DNA from: Halichondria panicea
Taxonomy: Eukaryota > Porifera > Demospongiae > Suberitida > Halichondriidae
Assembly: GCF_963675165.1 (NCBI RefSeq)
Contig: NC_087377.1
Span: forward strand, 4,960,042 to 5,024,041
Direction: 5' to 3'
Length of the DNA: 64,000 nucleotides
The position numbers were made by a program, and so were the translations under genes. Below are positions 30,780 through 63,701 of the stretch, piece after piece. The first letter of the stretch is position 1. Every line of letters begins with the position of its first letter. The notes under the pieces are model-generated. The model saw only the letters and a list, made by a program, of their open reading frames with translations. It made no database searches and was not told the origin of the DNA.

Positions 30780-32138
30780 CTAATTATTTATGGATGAGGT
30801 CAATAGCCTCGGTCCTAGGCCGCGGAGGCCAGTGTATGCGCGCATTACTACGATTCGAGAACTTCCGGTCGAAGGGACAGGGCGTTAACTAGAACACATT
30901 ATTGTCTAATGTAAATGGTTCGTTTTTGCTGTGTTCCAAACTGCTCTGATAGAGAGTCTCACCTTTCCTATTTTGGGCTACCTCTAAAGAACAAGTCTTT
31001 ACTCAAGAAGTGGATTCACGTTGTTTGTCGAAAGAATCTGTTGATCAACAGCAACACCAAAATCTGCAGTGAACACTTTGTCAATGCACATGGAAGGCGT
31101 CTCTACTCAGATGAGGTCCCCAGTTTGCTTCTACCAGTTGTTGTAAGGGCTCAGAAGGCTAGAAAGGAACCAAGAGAGCGCAGTTTACTCCTACAAGAAG
31201 AAGGCTTAGATGAATTGGAATTGGAAGAAAAAGATGTGTCAACACAAACAGAAGAGGTTGACGTTGAAGTACCTGGTGAGCTGTTAAGAATGAAAAAAAT
31301 AGTTGCTAAGCTGGAAGCCAAAGTACATGAACTAGATACGAAAATGAATCGGCAACTATTTCGGTTTTCTTCGATCAAAGATGATGATGTGAAGGTAGCG
31401 TTCTATACTGGGTTTCCTACGTCTTCATGTCTTAAAGCATTCTTTCAGTTTCTTGAACCAGCAGCTAGTGACTTAAGAAACAAGAAGAAAATCATGTTCG
31501 AACAGGAGAAGAAACTAAGCGCTATCATCCAAGATCATTATCACCCATAGAAGAGATGTTTTTGACATTAGTTCGTCTTTGCCTTGGACTGCTAGAGCAA
31601 GATCTTGCTGATCGCTTCAGTGCATCTCAATCTACTGTTAGTAGAATTACTTGCACATGGATCAATTTCCTCTACTTGAAACTAAAACAAATTCCTATGT
31701 GGCCTTCAAGAAACCTTGTGAGAGCAAATATGCCAAAACAATTTAAAGGAACAGTACCCTACAACACGAGTAATAATTGATGCTACTGAAATATATATCG
31801 AACAACCTCACCTACATGTACCTGAACTGCAACAAATGACTTTCTCTAATTACAAGAATGATAACACGTTTAAGGTTTTAGTTGGGATCTCTCCTGACGG
31901 AGCAATTACTTTTGTCTCGTCTTTGTTTCCTGGAAGTATTTCTGATAAGGCATTAACAAGGGAGAGTGGAATATTGATAATGTACACGTGTTATTTTAGA
32001 GTCAAATCGGCCTGGGACGCCATTTTTTTTTACCATTGTAAGAAACGCCTCTAGATTACAGTGATTCCAGATAGTATCCGGAGTTTTGCTGGGAGAAGGA
32101 TTGTCTCGCAGCTACCAGAAAATGAAGAGCTACTGGCA

Positions 32139-44730: not shown

Positions 44731-48964
<4,234 letters not shown>

Positions 48965-49451: not shown

Positions 49452-52400
49452 ATGTTCTCTAAGCGTGGCTCTGTTGTCCTCACCAAGGGCAAGCCACTCA
49501 GAGCACGGCAGACCTCCTTGGAGATTAAAGCATCATCCACTGGTGAATTCATGAGAGCCGACAAGTTTGAGAAGTCAGAGCAAGGAGGATCTCGTGCACT
49601 CAACTTTATCTACTGTGCGGCTGCAGTCCAGGGCTTTAGGTCACGGATACAGGTGAGAGGTGTTTAATTAAGTGTCGTTAATGTACAGGGAACCCCTAAA
49701 ATATTATGGAAGTATACACACTAGGTTTAGGTACGTGTATAGATATAGAAAGAGTTTTGCTTAATCGAGGTAGGTGACCTGATAAGATTTCATGAGTTTG
49801 GGGACTAGATTGAGTGAGCTGATTACAAGCATTTTCAGGTCGCCCACACTTTAAAAGTTCCACTGTAAACAATGTTTGTTGTGTATGTATAGCTAGGCTA
49901 ATAAAAGTACATTTACACGTCAGAACAGTGAGTGTGTTTGCATACAACTGGTAAACAGTTTCAGCTCTTGCAATAACTGTTTAACAACTTGAATACACAT
50001 TCCAATAAAACAATCTCGCAAACTAATACCCACACACCTAATTATAGGACGAGTACGCCTGTACCCCTAATATCGAAATCAAAGGCATCCCCTACGCCCA
50101 CTTTGGAGTATTTGACGGCCATGGCGACCAGGGGGAGGTGATATCTCAACACTGTGCGGACACCACGCTCAAACTACTCTTGAACAGAAAAGCTCTCAAG
50201 CAATCGAAAGTAGTCACCAACGAACTATTGGCAGCTAGCGTTCATAAGACAATTATAAAGATGGACACTGAGTTACGAGGTGTGGTGGGAATGGATGGAA
50301 AGCCACAGTTCCTGAGTGGAGGGACGACCGCTTGCTTCGTGCTCGTCTCTCAGGATGACATCATGTTTGTCAACGTCGGGGACTCAAGGTGCGTATATAA
50401 GATAATGTATGTACACAAGCTGAGAGCTAGCATCCCTTGACTATATATACGTAGTACCTAGGGAGTTAGGTCAGTTAACGTGCACACTGATGCTATACAA
50501 TAATAAGTACTCCCCTGACTATACATGTAGTTGGTTGTGATCATTCAACCTTTCATGATACCTAGTATACTTCTCAGAGGGTACAATGTCGATCGTATCA
50601 ATCGATGATTAAGGCCGTATGAATATAATACAGTCATAGCAATCCACTACTGTACGTAACATTATAACAGTGAATTTTAAAAACTTTGCGTGTCATTCCG
50701 GATCAAAATATCACAATGGTTAATTTCACTGAGATCATGCCCCTCATTCATTCATTCATTTAGGGCTGTACTGTGTCGTGATGGAGGTGTGGTCTATGAG
50801 ACGAGTGATCACAATCCTAACGTCCCCGAGGAAGAGGAGAGGATCGTTGCCGCGGGAGGCAACGTACACACCACACCCTCTAAACACAAGGTCATCACTG
50901 ATATTGGTGAGTTTGTACTAAATTAGTGTAGCAGCTACGTAGATAATAATAATGTTGTCAATGAGTCAATCGCCAGAGTAGGTGTTCTTTCCACTTTGTA
51001 CAATTACAGTGGAACCCTCTAATACTTATAATAATTGTGTCTGTTAGAGTGCTTTCACTGTGATTGTAATGACATAGTATTCGACCACCGTTATACGGAG
51101 GTGGCCACTTTGAGGGTTGCATTAAAAGTAGGTAATTATCAATTTGTTGTTCTTTCCACATACGTAAGTACATTGCATCAATTACCGTAACAATGTAACG
51201 GACACATTTGAGAGGAAATACATGTATTTCACCATTACATACATGTGCAGAGGTAGCCTTAGCTTGTTGTTGGCTTAATTTGTGTACATTTAAACTGTTC
51301 AATTTGGGACCTGCTTTATTATTATTACCGTTGGCCTTTTTATATGTATATACGTAGTTGCTATTCTTTGAGGGTGGCCACTATAATTATGAGGTGTTTC
51401 CATTGTATGTGCCGATGTCTTTAGTCTAAGTGTATGTTAGTTTAAAAACAAGACCTTGAACGTCGAGTCATGTAAGAGAATGATGGTATGATGTGATAGT
51501 GCTGATGGTTGTCAACCTTCACCTAATACAATGCATAATGTTATCATATTTAAACCACTCTGTTACACTTTCAATGTTGATTTTAACAGCCAGTGCACTA
51601 GTGTTATGATTATTATAATTATAGCCACATTTCATATAACCATAGATTGAAGAGTTAGAGGGATAGGAAACGGAGTGGTGCACGTGATGATTTTACATTA
51701 AATCTGCAGTGGAGCCTTGAAAATTATCCGCGTTACGAGGCTATTAAGCACATTTTTGCCGGGTAACTCCCAAAGCTGTGTTTCCTCGAGACATCATCTC
51801 TTTCAGCAATTTATAACACGCCTAGTCCATGAGCCACGTGTAGTACTTGCTAATGACTGACCACACCCAGTAAAAAGAGACTTTCCAATAAAGTTATATG
51901 TTCCCAAGGCTGTTATAGAGCTATTGGAACATATAACGTGTAAGCGTGCTGGTTATGACTACTACAATAGGTATAGACCTTGAAATATAAGTGAGTTGCA
52001 CGGACTAAGCACAGTTACTTGTAGTTTAATATGCACTGAGTGTAGAAATAGATATTGTTGTGATGGCCTCGATTAAACCGCAGCGTAGCGCGGATGTTAC
52101 TCGAGATACAAACCGTTTCCTATCCCTCTAACTCTTCAATCTATGATATAACTATTGTCCCTAACCAAAATGAACTAATGACACAATGATAAGTATTCCA
52201 TCTACAGGTACATGCATATAATTATGTCTGTTTGTGTGTGCCTTGGAGAACTGAAGCACTATAACGGTTGTGATACTTAAGAATGAAGCTACTATACCCC
52301 CCACTCACACACACACACACACACTCACACTCACACACACACACACACACACACACACCACACACACACATACCACACACGCACGCACGCACACACACAC

Positions 52401-57978: not shown

Positions 57979-60900
57979 ATGATTGATAGTCGAGAGTCTA
58001 CTCCAACTAAAACACCCCAAGCCAGTGGATTGGAACCTGCTGCACAGAGGACACGAGAGAGTGATGCCATGGCAATGAAAAAACAAATAACTCAAAAGGA
58101 AGTGAAACTGAGTCGGAGTGAACAATTCAAATTGAAGTGTGTTCTAGAACAAGTACAGAGTGAATACTTTGAAGCACAACAAAAGATTGACGATCTCCAA
58201 CTCGAGCTTGAGGGAAACAGAGATGCTAGGAAACTTTGTAGTGAGCTGGAGGAACTGACTAGAAAAGCTGAAGAAGATGCTGCAAGAGATCGCCAAGAAA
58301 TGGAGTGCTTTCGAAGAGAGGCTGTAGACCTTCGTAGGGTGGCCACAGACCTTCAAGCCCAAGTGGAAAACCTCACTCAGAGATTGAACGAAGTTACTGC
58401 ATCGAATGAGGACCTTCAAGAAATTGTCAGAAATGCTATTGAGCAAGCTTCACCCTCCGCCCACGATATTCAAGCTGATGATGAAGGTGATAGTACCAAA
58501 ATGCTGCAACATATTAGACGCAAATACCTTGAGAAGGTTACAGAAATCCATGACTTGAGAGAAAAACATCGAAGAGAAAAGGACGAACTGAATAAACAAT
58601 TTGACAGTGCAAAACTGAAGTCATCTATCAGAGCAAAAGATATTCAGTCATTATCACTTCAGTTGCAGACCTTCCAACAAGTAGCGTCTCAGCGAGAGCA
58701 GTTACAAGAGCACAGTAAAACACAGATCACTATTGTTGTTAAGCTCAGGAAAGAGCTTGAGGCAGCTAGAGTAAATATTAATTTTGCTCACAACTATTAT
58801 ACACACATGCTAGCCTCATGAATCAGCCGCCGTTCTGGAATACCCAAAAAACAGCGGCTGATTCATGAGACTATACATACTTGCATGTAATAATTGTATA
58901 TGAATGATTGTATAATACGTACTATATTATTGTCACATTCTTACTCAGGAGGAACTTGAAGTACTCCGAAGTTCATCTGACACTGCAAGAAAAATTGAAG
59001 GCCTACACCAGAAAATAGTAGAGTGTGATGAAGAGCTTAGGGATCTCAAGGTGTATATATACATGTATATATATGCACCATTATAGCTCTCAGTTCAATA
59101 AAAAAAATGTGTGGAATAATAGTACGTATTTGTACCTATAGTTTTGGGTTCATGTAAATAGTTTCATGGAGGACTATAATGCATGTATACCTGCGGTGGG
59201 TGTCATGCATCAGAATGCCAGAATGTAGTAAACTGTATAGTGCATGCTGCATGAGGCTGAGAGAAAGGAGAAAATTAAAGCGTCATGAGTCAAGAAAAGA
59301 ATAATACTCTTTTAGCGGCCTGATTATTTTTTAATGCAGGAGAAACTTTCTAAGCCAAATGTGCTCTTCTCAAGAAGTGCAGATTCTCGTCCTACAGGAG
59401 TCAATGATGATCCACAAGAAGTGCAGCTACTCAAAACTGAAACATTCCTCCAGAAGGTATAAATTATATGCCATAAATTTTAACACCAAACGACAGTGTT
59501 TAATCGCATAAAAATTTTATAATTAATATGTAACTATTGCATGTATGCAGATTGAGATCGAAGAGCTTCATGGAAAGGTTGGGAGATTAAAGACTCGATT
59601 AACGGACACAATTGTGTTCAAAACTGAAAAAACCGAGGATCTACAGAAGAAAAGAAAGGAACTTGAGGAAGAACTGAAGGTCACTAAATTACAAGTAAGC
59701 TCTGTATATATAGTAATGTCACGTCAGCTCTTTTACTTATAAGTGTGGTGTGCATGTGCATGTGGTGAATTTAATCCATGATGCCATTTCCATGCATGCA
59801 TGAGTCTCTCTATATATATACTTTACAATGTTCACTATTATATTCTCCATGTAGACAGTCATGCATCATGTCATTTTATCCAATGCATGTGAAGGCCTAT
59901 ATGGCTTTATCTTAATTCGTGCATGCTCTCATATAAATACTTAGGCTCTTCAGTACCAACAAGACTTCGAAGATGAACGGGCTGCAAATGAAGGTTTAAA
60001 TGAACAACTCGAAAGTGTTACTCAAGATGATAGAGATAGTAAGCTCGAAGTACTAGCAAATGAAATGGATGATCAATTGACTCATGAGAGAAACCACACT
60101 GCAGCATTGGCACAAGATCTTGCAGCCAAAGAACAAGAGTTGTCCCATACAAAACAAAATTGTGACCGAACAGCAACCGAACTACAAGATGCTCGCCAGA
60201 GGCTGGAGGTGTCCCTCACTGACACAGAACGTCTTTACGATGAGGTCATGGCAAAGACGGCTCAAGTGAAGCAGTACAAGAAACAGACGGACAGTTTCAA
60301 AGCCAAAGTGGAAGAGGCCAATACTAAACTACTGAAGACACAACAGGAGCTGCAGCGTTGTCAAGAGCTCATTAAAACCATGGAAGAGGACAATCAGTAT
60401 CAGGTATTCATTGTGCAAACAAAATTCCTAGTAAAGCTCCTCAAATTCACAGATTAAGCAAATCAAAGCGACAGCAGAGAATGCGAAGCTTACCTCTGAA
60501 TTAGATTTAATCCAAACACGTAAGGAGTACATGATGATGGTGGAAGATAAAACACGGGAGCTGCAGACTTTGCAACTTGATTGGGAGCAGTACAAGTACA
60601 AAGTACGTTTTAATTTGTGTTTGATAAGCTATATGTTCACATGTGACAACTGTTTTCCACTTGTGTGTCACATAGCGTACTTATTTTTGCATATACATGT
60701 ACAGGCTAAACAACTGAGCTCTGATGAACTGGTTCCCTATTGTCTTCCTCATCTCCCTGCGCTTGGAGAGCAACAAGGCTCTGGATCGTACGGATCTGTC
60801 TACCGTATCCAACTGAATGGGGTTAGCTGTATTGCCAAACGACTTCACGACATTTTGCTTGGTCAGGGGAAAGAAGAAAAAGTGAGTTTAGAAGACCAAC

Positions 60901-62833
60901 AAGCTGCTTATGACAAGTTTTATCACGAATGTGTGTTGCTGAGTCGAATGCGCCACCCTAACATTGTCCAGTTCATGGGTGTGTACTACGGGCCACAGAG
61001 AGATTACGGGAGAGAGCTCACACTAGTTATGGAACGTTTGTACATGAATCTCGAGGATTGCCTGGAGAAATATAAAAATCTTGATATGTGGTTGAAAATT
61101 TCGATTCTTCTAGATATTTCCCAAGGCTTGCTCCACCTTCATTCTCAAGATATTGTTCACCGCGATCTGACAGCTGCTAATATTCTCCTCACAACGAGCT
61201 TTCACGCTAAGATTGCTGACCTTGGTGTCTCAAGAATCATTGATGTCCACCCTTTGGCTGCTTCCAAACAGTCGATGATTCCCGGAACCCTCGGGTACAT
61301 GCCCCCTGAGGCACTAGCGGAAATCCCCAAATATGGCTATGCTTTGGACGTTTTTTCGTTTGGTGTGATAATTCTGTTTGCCCTTCTACAAGAGTATCCA
61401 CAATACTACGAGAATGTTGTGACAGTCACTGGCGTTCAGCGAAAGGAAATTCAGATACAAAAGCGAATGAAATGGATCGCCAAACTGTCACCGGAAGGTC
61501 TGATGAGACAATTAATCTGCGATTGTCTACAAGATGAGCCCCAAAGGCGACCAACAACTCAAGATGTCAACCTGACTCTGATTCGTTTTGCACGACATTT
61601 TCCAAAACCTTTTGTGGATACTATTGAAATGCAAAGAAAATTGGTGAGTTCTACGATTATGTTTAGATCTATACCATGCACAAGCGATGTAGCATTGTTT
61701 GGAGCTCTATATTTTTTATTCTCAGAAACCCACGACTCTACCTATACCTCCAAGGCGAATCAGTCAGGGACAAACCTCGGTCTAGCAATTATTACATCGT
61801 ATAATTATACTACGACTGACATTTTATAGCTGCACATAATAATATTTAGTTACTTTTTCCGCATATTCAATGTAGATTGATCCTGCAGGACACTCTATTG
61901 CGTGATTTTGCTATACCGTATATCTTCTAATTTATCGGACAGTAAAAAATAATTATTTTGGAAATTGTCCGGGTATAATTGGAACAGATTTTTATAGAGC
62001 ATGCGAAGTGTCCGGAATAATTAGAACAAGCAAGCAGCTGCATGCGAGCTAGCTAAGTTTAATAGAACAGGGTACGACTGAATAGATGCACTAACTATCT
62101 AAAACTAGCTACTCAAAGCTATCTAACTGCAGCACTCCAAGTCTTACTTGCCGTCTGTGAATGTAAACTCTACTTTTCAAAGTATTGTCCAGATATTTAG
62201 AACAAATGTAATATTAAAGCACTGGAGTGTCCGTTGTATTAGAACAACAAATATTGCCCAAAAGAGTGTCCGGGGTAATTAGAAGTGTCCGATAAATTAG
62301 AAGATATACGGTAATTATAGTACCAACAAGAACACCACGATGCACAACATGCATTTATGATATCTGCCTTTTAGTTTCAGTCTCCGCCCCTTTTTAGCCA
62401 AACACTGTTGACAAAACTCGAGACAAAACTACACAAAATGTGGAGACAAAACGAAAAGCTCTCAGAGGAGCCTGCTCAAGGTGGTGGTGCTCAGCTACGA
62501 GATAGAGAGAGTCCTGAAAGTGGTCATGACCTGTGTCTAACTGATCAACTATTCGATGACGACCCTTTTTGGCAATTGCAAGCAATTCACCCCGCCCAAG
62601 GAGATGCCTCACATCTCCCCGTCCCAGAGCTAGAGCATAGGAGTGATATCACATCTTCTGATGTTAGCAGCAGTGATTTAAAACAAGTGGAGGAAATTCA
62701 GACTGTCTCAGCATCACCTAAATTCAGTGCTGTCAAGAATAACCCATCTCCCGCGTACAGTGAGGGAGCACGTCGTACTAGATCTAGTCCAATATTCTCA
62801 GATCCATTTCATTTACCAGAAATTGAAGTTGAT
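57979..62833 (+). CDS. UBAN coiled-coil / TKL-like protein kinase fusion, 3' end not seen
   Basis: Exons, all phase 0: 57979-58770, 58949-59050, 59340-59456, 59551-59694, 59945-60403, 60453-60602, 60705-61643, 62381-62833; at least 1052 residues. Residues about 20-585 are coiled coil. A UBAN-like core sits at about 388-402 (YQQDFEDERAANE), and AKTAQVKQYKKQTD follows near 490, both as in the neighbouring finger genes. The kinase domain (about 605-890) has GSGSYGSVY, Lys633 (CIAKRL), alphaC Glu663, HRDLTAAN (Asp742), DLG in place of DFG (Asp760), and MPPEAL in place of APE, so it should be active. The HRDLTAAN loop and overall shape suggest the tyrosine-kinase-like group (RIPK/IRAK/Raf relatives), not proven. 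After the kinase comes an acidic Ser-rich tail. The last exon ends at a GTGAGT, so at least one more exon follows, possibly outside the window; alternatively translation reads on to the stop at 62987-62989. Confidence 0.85.
61916..62311. mobile_element. CCGTATATC-ended miniature element in a kinase-gene intron
   Basis: Second copy of the element at 53716-54120, inverted, with flanking TA. It sits 70 bp before the last visible exon of the kinase gene. Confidence 0.75.
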
Positions 62834-63034: not shown

Positions 63035-63328
63035 GTAGACTGGCGGCGACAGCCCCTCGTGTACCGCGAGGGACTGGCAAACTGTCTATCAGTCACTCGT
63101 CTCAGCTGCAACGAGCATTGCAGCCTATCAGATTGCTCAACGTCATATTAGCCCTGTAATTGTAACCGCACTTACACTTCAGGGGATTCAGTGCATTCCA
63201 TAGTAGCTGAATCTCATAGCAAAATTTAACCACATTATCTATAACGATATTCATGTTTAGTAGTGTCATACGATCTATTACACTTCCGCTGAGACGAGTG
63301 ACTGATAGGCAGTTTGCCGCCAGTCTAC
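63035..63328. mobile_element. GTAGACTGGCGGC-ended miniature element
   Basis: The inverted ends read GTAGACTGGCGGC then GGCAAACTGyCTATCAGTCA; about 30 extra bases split the left end. The flanking 7-bp duplication is GTTGAGA on both sides. Confidence 0.7.
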
Positions 63329-63701
63329 GTTGAGAGCTGAGTGACTTGTACAACATTCATTGACTATGGGTTAGACAACTGTTTAGGAAGTCAAAGATGC
63401 AGGATGATTGTCTCAAACAAGCCTTTTATAAGCACCAGAAAAAATTAATTACAACAACGGTTGGCACTTTTTTAGGACCTAAAAAATTACGTTGATGCTG
63501 ACGTGGCGCTTAAATTATGGTGGTGCTGTCATTACATCAATTACGGTAGTTTCCTACGTCAAAGTTGTATGGTTTTACAAGACGCGCGTGACATTGTGTT
63601 GAAGACAGTATAGACCCACATGTACAGTAAAACATTGTACTGTTCACGAATAACATCATTGCATACACTTAATTTAATTGTCATGTCTACTTATCATAAT
63701 A

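Follow-up and report, generated by a model that had tools for sequence, protein, structure and literature searches.

The window analysed here comprises 64,000 nucleotides of the sponge Halichondria panicea (assembly GCF_963675165.1, contig NC_087377.1, positions 4960042 to 5024041), and was searched against a genome of 131 Mb in 39 contigs, in which this contig is contig 1. It carries five genes in which a UBAN motif is combined with a finger, and, on the plus strand, one predicted gene of eight exons in which a UBAN-type coiled coil is joined to a protein kinase (Table 1). All eight exons are in phase 0 and all introns are GT/AG, and the spliced model of 2763 nt encodes 920 residues without an internal stop or frame break. 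Exons 1-6 encode the coil, exon 7 the kinase and exon 8 a tail of 19 residues, so that the plus strand reads YQQDFEDERAANE, then AKTAQVKQYKK, then the kinase domain. On the 920-residue protein, Pfam (E<=1) returned Pkinase (E 5.7e-38), PK_Tyr_Ser-Thr, CC2-LZ, YbjQ_2 and no other family. With this order, kinase match and open eight-exon model, the union of coil, AKTAQVKQYKK segment and kinase in one predicted gene, as proposed in a preliminary description of this DNA, was confirmed, and we hold it highly probable, as a reading of the sequence, that one predicted protein contains both a UBAN-type coil and a kinase.

Table 1. Features of the predicted kinase gene and its 3' neighbour (positions are those of the window; matching loci are positions on contig 1, plus strand unless marked).
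Feature	Position	Strand	Basis and matching loci
Exon 1, coiled coil, ATG at 57979, residues 1-264	57979..58770	+	spliced model; paralogous matches 5033670, 5106822, 5160380, 3827735(-)
Exon 2, coiled coil (EELEVLRSSSDTARKIEGL...)	58949..59050	+	spliced model; paralog matches
Exon 3	59340..59456	+	spliced model; weak paralogous matches 5162217 (E 0.013), 3825186(-) (E 0.007)
Exon 4, coiled coil, 5' of the UBAN core	59551..59694	+	spliced model; paralog comparison
Exon 5, UBAN exon; begins nine bases 5' of the core Y codon; holds AKTAQVKQYKK	59945..60403	+	
UBAN core YQQDFEDERAANE: Y389, D392, F393, E396, R397, N400, E401	59954..59992	+	
AKTAQVKQYKK family segment, common to the finger genes	60251..60283	+	
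Exon 6, last coil exon, in the open frame of the kinase	60453..60602	+	homologues 5147431, 5165586, 3822067(-)
Exon 7, kinase domain: Gly loop, Lys, Glu, HRD, Asn, DLG, PPE	60705..61643	+	
Exon 8, proline-rich tail KPTTLPIPPRRISQGQTSV and stop	61726..61785	+	homologues 5050541, 5127798
Probably the first exon of the next paralog, outside this gene	62381..62833	+	homologues 5031617, 5104358, 5156771

The number of exons agrees with the preliminary description, whereas the 3' end does not: the gene had been drawn to 62833, and its last exon is the short proline-rich one, homologues of which follow the kinases at 5.050 and 5.128 Mb. As a last exon, the segment at 62381-62833 was rejected. All three of its homologues head the next paralogs, lying a few hundred bases 5' of homologues of the first coil exon (5032202, 5104915 and 5157335), and it is therefore probably the first exon of the paralog that follows. 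At the junction of coil and kinase, a single open frame (60435-61829) takes in exon 6, intron 6 (102 nt, free of in-frame stops) and the kinase exon, so that retention of intron 6 would leave the two exons fused.

The kinase appears complete, with its catalytic residues in place. The set expected of an active kinase is present (Gly loop, ATP-site Lys, alpha-C Glu, HRD, Asn, DxG and PPE), and K45, E75, H152-R153-D154, N159, D172, G174 and E202, in the numbering of the exon, are invariant in all nine aligned kinases. In the catalytic loop, HRDLTAAN, a Thr takes the place of the Lys that is usual in Ser/Thr kinases; the TESK kinases have Thr at that position too. The label "TKL-like" given earlier is reasonable, though not proven, for this domain. 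In its favour, CTR1, TNNI3K and IRAK4, and lower down B-Raf, are among the best 60 of 1129 PDB matches of the single sequence, and the best 60 of 1405 matches of the kinase profile include CTR1, IRAK4, TNNI3K and LIMK2; the same lists of best matches also hold OSR1, JAK2, STK11, PAK and EGFR. IKK, TBK1 and RIPK are absent from the best 60 matches of both searches. No TBK1-type ubiquitin-like domain follows the kinase in Pfam at E<=1, the 19-residue exon standing there instead, and neither a death domain nor a RHIM lies beside it among the Pfam matches to the protein at the same threshold. Contig 13 encodes a TBK1-type ubiquitin-like domain (E 2.9e-5, just above the cut-off together with its neighbours), and the fusion therefore seems to coexist with a TBK1-like gene.

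The layout recurs. The genome search placed the kinase subfamily at 15 positions with at least 73% identity, the window's included, and looser kinase matches number more than 100, which is a lower bound. Upstream DNA was examined for nine of the 15 (again with the window's), and six of these, at 5.020 (window), 5.046, 5.117, 5.145, 3.226 and 3.248 Mb, are preceded on the same strand by a UBAN-type exon. For the other three, at 3.279, 3.285 and 3.832 Mb, the upstream DNA examined contained no exact UBAN motif. Among all 15 kinases, five are preceded on the same strand, at a distance of at most 11 kb, by the exact motif, compared with a mean of 0.14 in 5000 uniform shuffles (largest value 4), and the sixth locus with a UBAN exon reads YENDLNEER. 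The splice sites are conserved as well: all 13 UBAN exons inspected, of kinase type and finger type alike, have an AG exactly nine bases 5' of the Y codon.

Some of these counts weigh against a general coupling of coil and kinase. For ten of the 15 kinases the 11 kb upstream hold no exact motif, and for two the motif is found equally near on the downstream side of the same strand, so that clustering alone yields some proximity of motif and kinase. Moreover, two of the six UBAN-kinase loci look broken: the UBAN exon at 5.117 Mb has a frame break, and the kinase at 5.149 Mb contains an in-frame TAA. A further candidate pair, at 4917029/4921939, was rejected: its UBAN gene seems to be a truncated finger gene, and the kinase 3' of it looks separate, which indicates that proximity of a kinase to a UBAN gene need not mean a fusion. 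One could accordingly suppose that the window, too, holds two adjoining genes, a coiled-coil adaptor and a separate kinase. This we regard as quite improbable, given that exon 6 and the kinase exon share one open frame across 102 nt, that no finger match lies between coil and kinase, that the kinase exon starts at an identical phase-0 acceptor and codon in four kinases of the array (5.020, 5.049, 5.127 and 5.149 Mb), and that the order of coil and kinase is repeated in a second cluster 1.8 Mb away.

Several relatives of the kinase lie outside this set of six. The paralog next to the window gene (5022422-5031187) has a UBAN segment at 5026608 and a different kinase (46%) at 5030174; this pair is uncertain and is not counted among the six, its UBAN segment being included in the alignment described below. 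At 3831848-3832753, on the minus strand, a paralogous kinase reads HCDLAAHT and ADLAVS where HRD..N and DLG would be expected and is probably a pseudokinase. Many looser relatives of the window kinase form large clusters on contigs 3, 10 and 17, with many long open frames on contig 3.

The assignment of the coil draws on two sets of UBAN segments, both read directly from the DNA. The first consists of 13 aligned segments: the window copy, those of the kinase loci at 5.046, 5.117 and 5.145 Mb, the uncertain one at 5.027 Mb, the two at 5.164 and 3.823 Mb, where the same coil is followed by a finger, those of the five finger genes of the window and a finger-type exon at 5.182 Mb. The second consists of the segments of the six kinase loci. 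As a DNA pattern, the core Y..DF..ER occurs six times in the window, five times in finger genes and once in the kinase gene, compared with 0.02 expected, and none of 100 shuffles reached six. Across the whole genome the pattern has 72 occurrences, compared with 58 for its reverse; contig 1 accounts for 30 of the 72, with 28 falling between 1.06 and 5.18 Mb. The core residues, which we take to be the equivalents of NEMO Y308, D311, F312, E315 and R316, are invariant in all 13 segments. Across the six kinase loci Y, D, E and R are likewise invariant and the core Phe is present in five.

Compared with the PDB at E<=10, the profile of 13 segments gave 29 matches, the first 20 of which are TNIP2, NEMO, optineurin and TNIP1 (best TNIP2, E 8.3e-8); the remaining nine, from E 0.014 onwards, are unrelated coils and others. 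The profile of the six kinase loci gave 24 matches, beginning with 19 to optineurin, NEMO and TNIP1 (best optineurin, E 0.0035) and ending with five, from E 0.53, that are mostly tropomyosin. A genome scan with CC2-LZ (PF16516, the NEMO domain; E<=10) found 38 places, of which the best 25 all span the core and 24 of those 25 are on contig 1. With five exons scanned singly, three matched CC2-LZ at E<=0.1 (0.092 at 3.226 Mb, 0.00066 and 0.00049). On this pooled profile evidence, the coil family is probably UBAN. A profile for EABR gave no match, and its controls were likewise silent. Off contig 1, an isolated UBAN-like sequence, YRDDFNEER, was seen on contig 10 (4219775-4219885), possibly a conserved orthologue of NEMO, optineurin or ABIN.

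The copy in the window is a weaker member of this family, and a number of results count against its reading ubiquitin. On its own, its UBAN segment matched optineurin best, at E 0.28, and nine of its 14 PDB matches are UBAN proteins, none of them significant. CC2-LZ matched residues 335-413 of the protein with E 0.0035 and 18.2 bits, under the curated cut-off of 35.3; in the genome scan the window copy ranks 36th of 38 (E 1.23), and no CC2-LZ match exceeded the curated cut-off in the window protein, the genome scan or the single exons. Of the exons scanned singly, two (3.248 and 5.046 Mb) had no match at E<=0.1, and a third (3.226 Mb) had barely one. The UBAN match expected from the preliminary description was thus clearer with the pooled kinase loci than with the window copy alone, which we assign to UBAN by descent and residues and not by its own score. 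The equivalents of NEMO D311 and E315 are present in 13 of 13 segments, the window copy included; at the position of R319, 12 of the 13 have Arg and the window copy has Asn, which also makes it the only one of the six kinase loci to differ there, the copies at 5.046 and 3.226 Mb keeping the Arg. The numbering of D311, E315 and R319 follows PMC11854354, according to which human NEMO carrying D311N, E315A or R319Q is impaired in its binding of ubiquitin, so that Asn at the R319 position speaks against binding. With a weak single-copy match and the R319 equivalent missing, ubiquitin binding by the window copy is therefore doubtful. Its UBAN exon encodes 153 residues compared with 289 at 5.145 Mb and 292 at 5.164 Mb, with the gap after the core; with about half the UBAN exon of these relatives it may bind ubiquitin weakly.

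These observations would also fit a coil that is only a scaffold, with a relic UBAN core, the kinase being dimerised and localised by the remainder of the coil without any reading of ubiquitin. The shortened exon and the Asn of the window copy point that way, as do the Leu that replaces the core Phe at 3.248 Mb, the weak UBAN scores of single copies, and the loci at 3.279 and 3.285 Mb, which have the kinase and pieces of coil with no exact UBAN motif in the DNA examined. Against it stand the conserved residues of the six kinase loci and the pattern of loss within exon 5: in five aligned copies both ends of the exon, the UBAN core and the KQYKK segment, are kept, while the middle is deleted in differing ways. 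We consider a mere scaffold quite possible, if on balance improbable. The earlier claim that the protein reads ubiquitin chains is better supported for the paralogs than for the window copy, since the latter has a shortened UBAN without the R319 equivalent.

How the kinase gene relates to the finger genes around it may be judged exon by exon. The finger of the sister genes, read by eye as C-x2-C-x14-H-x3-C, resembles the fingers of NEMO and optineurin; Pfam gave no match (E<=0.1) to any of the four finger exons scanned. With one finger as the query, 24 places were found at E<=0.1, all on contig 1 and none between 5009002 and 5168757. Within the window's finger genes, only the exon from UBAN to AKTAQVKQYKK matches the kinase gene, at 26-31% identity, and when profiles of kinase-type and finger-type exons are compared, 30 columns around KQYKK align (probability 93.4) and the UBAN core does not. 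The N-terminal module said to be shared with the finger genes is thus limited, in the window, to this exon and does not extend to the other coil exons. Two finger loci outside the window share the coil of the kinase gene far more completely: finger exons at 5168757 and 3820496(-) come after the coils at 5164026 and 3823081(-), respectively, the UBAN exons of these two loci being 82-86% and 72-89% identical to that of the window over aligned residues, figures that depend on the alignment. Because these two loci have the same coil and then a finger, it is possible that the last exon has been swapped.

Synonymous divergence (dS) between the copies is in line with such exchange. On its UBAN side, the kinase gene at 5.117 Mb is closest to the finger gene at 5.164 Mb (dS 0.106) and differs from the kinase gene at 5.046 Mb by dS 0.45 in the multiple alignment; its kinase is closest to that of the same 5.046 Mb gene (dS 0.055). 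For the window copy, dS to the paralogs is 1.0-1.2 in exon 2 (34 codons) and 0.09-0.27 at the end of exon 5. The simplest reading of these sequence comparisons is gene conversion or exchange between copies. One comparison does not fit it, namely that of the last 72 codons of exon 5, in which the 5.117 Mb copy has the same dS, 0.232, to both the 5.164 Mb finger gene and the 5.046 Mb kinase gene.

The ratio of nonsynonymous to synonymous divergence (dN/dS) is 0.15-0.32 for the kinase exon (21 pairs), 0.30-0.79 for the UBAN exon (15 pairs) and 0.24-0.52 for exon 1 (10 pairs), which points to purifying selection on the coding exons. At odds with this is the final stretch of exon 5, 72 codons long, in which dN/dS exceeds 1 in two of 15 pairs, 5.145 Mb against the window copy (1.05) and 5.145 against 5.164 Mb (1.65); both involve the 5.145 Mb copy, which fits decay of that copy. 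The window gene might itself be a pseudogene, one of the dying copies of a tandem array, in keeping with its shortened UBAN exon and with the frame break or stop in two sister copies. The open model of 2763 nt and the values below 1 that the window copy shows for kinase, UBAN exon and exon 1, the partial comparison at 1.05 excepted, make this very unlikely.

The explanation that we find best overall, and just on the probable side, is that the gene encodes a UBAN-type coiled-coil kinase that acts by ubiquitin-driven clustering and trans-phosphorylation and that arose by exon shuffling. According to this model, the coil would dimerise in parallel like those of NEMO and optineurin, and binding of M1- or K63-linked ubiquitin chains would cluster the dimers. 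The clustered kinases would then activate one another by trans-phosphorylation, bringing chain reading and phosphorylation within one protein. The sister genes that end in a finger would encode adaptors sharing this reader, and perhaps partners in heterodimers. As to origin, the last (finger) exon of an optineurin- or NEMO-like adaptor and a kinase exon may have been exchanged, in either direction, by phase-0 exon shuffling, with tandem duplication and exchange between copies following. Ubiquitin gating as such is possible for the family, not far short of probable, and for the window copy we think it decidedly doubtful. One may speculate further that these are lineage-specific ubiquitin-chain-gated kinases, produced when a kinase exon took the place of the last exon in an optineurin- or NEMO-like adaptor, and that adaptor and kinase forms with the same coil may mix in heterodimers, giving one ubiquitin-reading scaffold "recruit" and "phosphorylate" versions, independent of IKK and TBK1; this wider proposal is tentative, and as a whole rather unlikely.

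In vertebrates, a reader of ubiquitin chains (NEMO or optineurin) works with a separate kinase (IKK or TBK1). The window gene resembles optineurin and NEMO in its long coiled coil with a UBAN core and differs from them in that its protein carries a kinase domain of its own; the IKK-binding domain of NEMO (PF11577) is absent from the protein at E<=1, and its best match in the genome (E 0.06) is under the cut-off. ABIN1 and ABIN2 (TNIP1 and TNIP2) also share the UBAN, their structures having been retrieved by the pooled profiles, and are adaptors not known to carry a kinase. TBK1 and the IKK kinases are recruited to ubiquitin chains by optineurin or NEMO, a functional analogy only, and the window protein is unlike them in lacking the TBK1-type ubiquitin-like domain and in having neither among the best 60 PDB matches of its kinase. 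CTR1, IRAK4, TNNI3K and LIMK2, which are among those matches, are similar in the kinase domain, and none of them is known to be joined to a UBAN coil. RIPK1/2/3 offer a conceptual link of ubiquitin chains with a kinase; the window protein has no death domain, and no RIPK chain is among its best 60 of 1129 or 1405 matches. Of the suggestion in the preliminary description that the protein merges the roles of NEMO/optineurin and of IKK/TBK1/RIPK, the presence of coil and kinase in one protein stands, and the part concerning IKK, TBK1 and RIPK is an analogy. No described protein with this layout was known to the preliminary description, and in agreement with this no description of a UBAN-kinase protein was found in the open-access PMC literature as listed. 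In the main text of PMC10694592 the word "sponge" occurs once, in the reference list.

If the model is correct, a natural single-chain version would show that both halves suffice when joined, and would provide a compact ubiquitin-switched kinase for study. It would also show how immune adaptors may diversify by exchange of the last exon, and the finger-ended and kinase-ended genes, built on the same coil and lying side by side in one genome, would allow a direct comparison.

The window has other features besides. Upstream of the kinase gene, positions 50048-50440 hold an exon of a PP2C-type phosphatase (E 6e-8). Within the adaptor array, frames with a THAP domain (3e-12) and DDE_Tnp_4 (3e-17) at 30915-32051 probably represent a DNA transposon. 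By eye, inverted repeats resembling hairpins or miniature inverted-repeat transposable elements are seen at about 58817-58867, in intron 1, and at 63035-63330, 3' of the gene. A long CA/GT microsatellite at about 45080-45470 gives rise to artefactual open frames on both strands.

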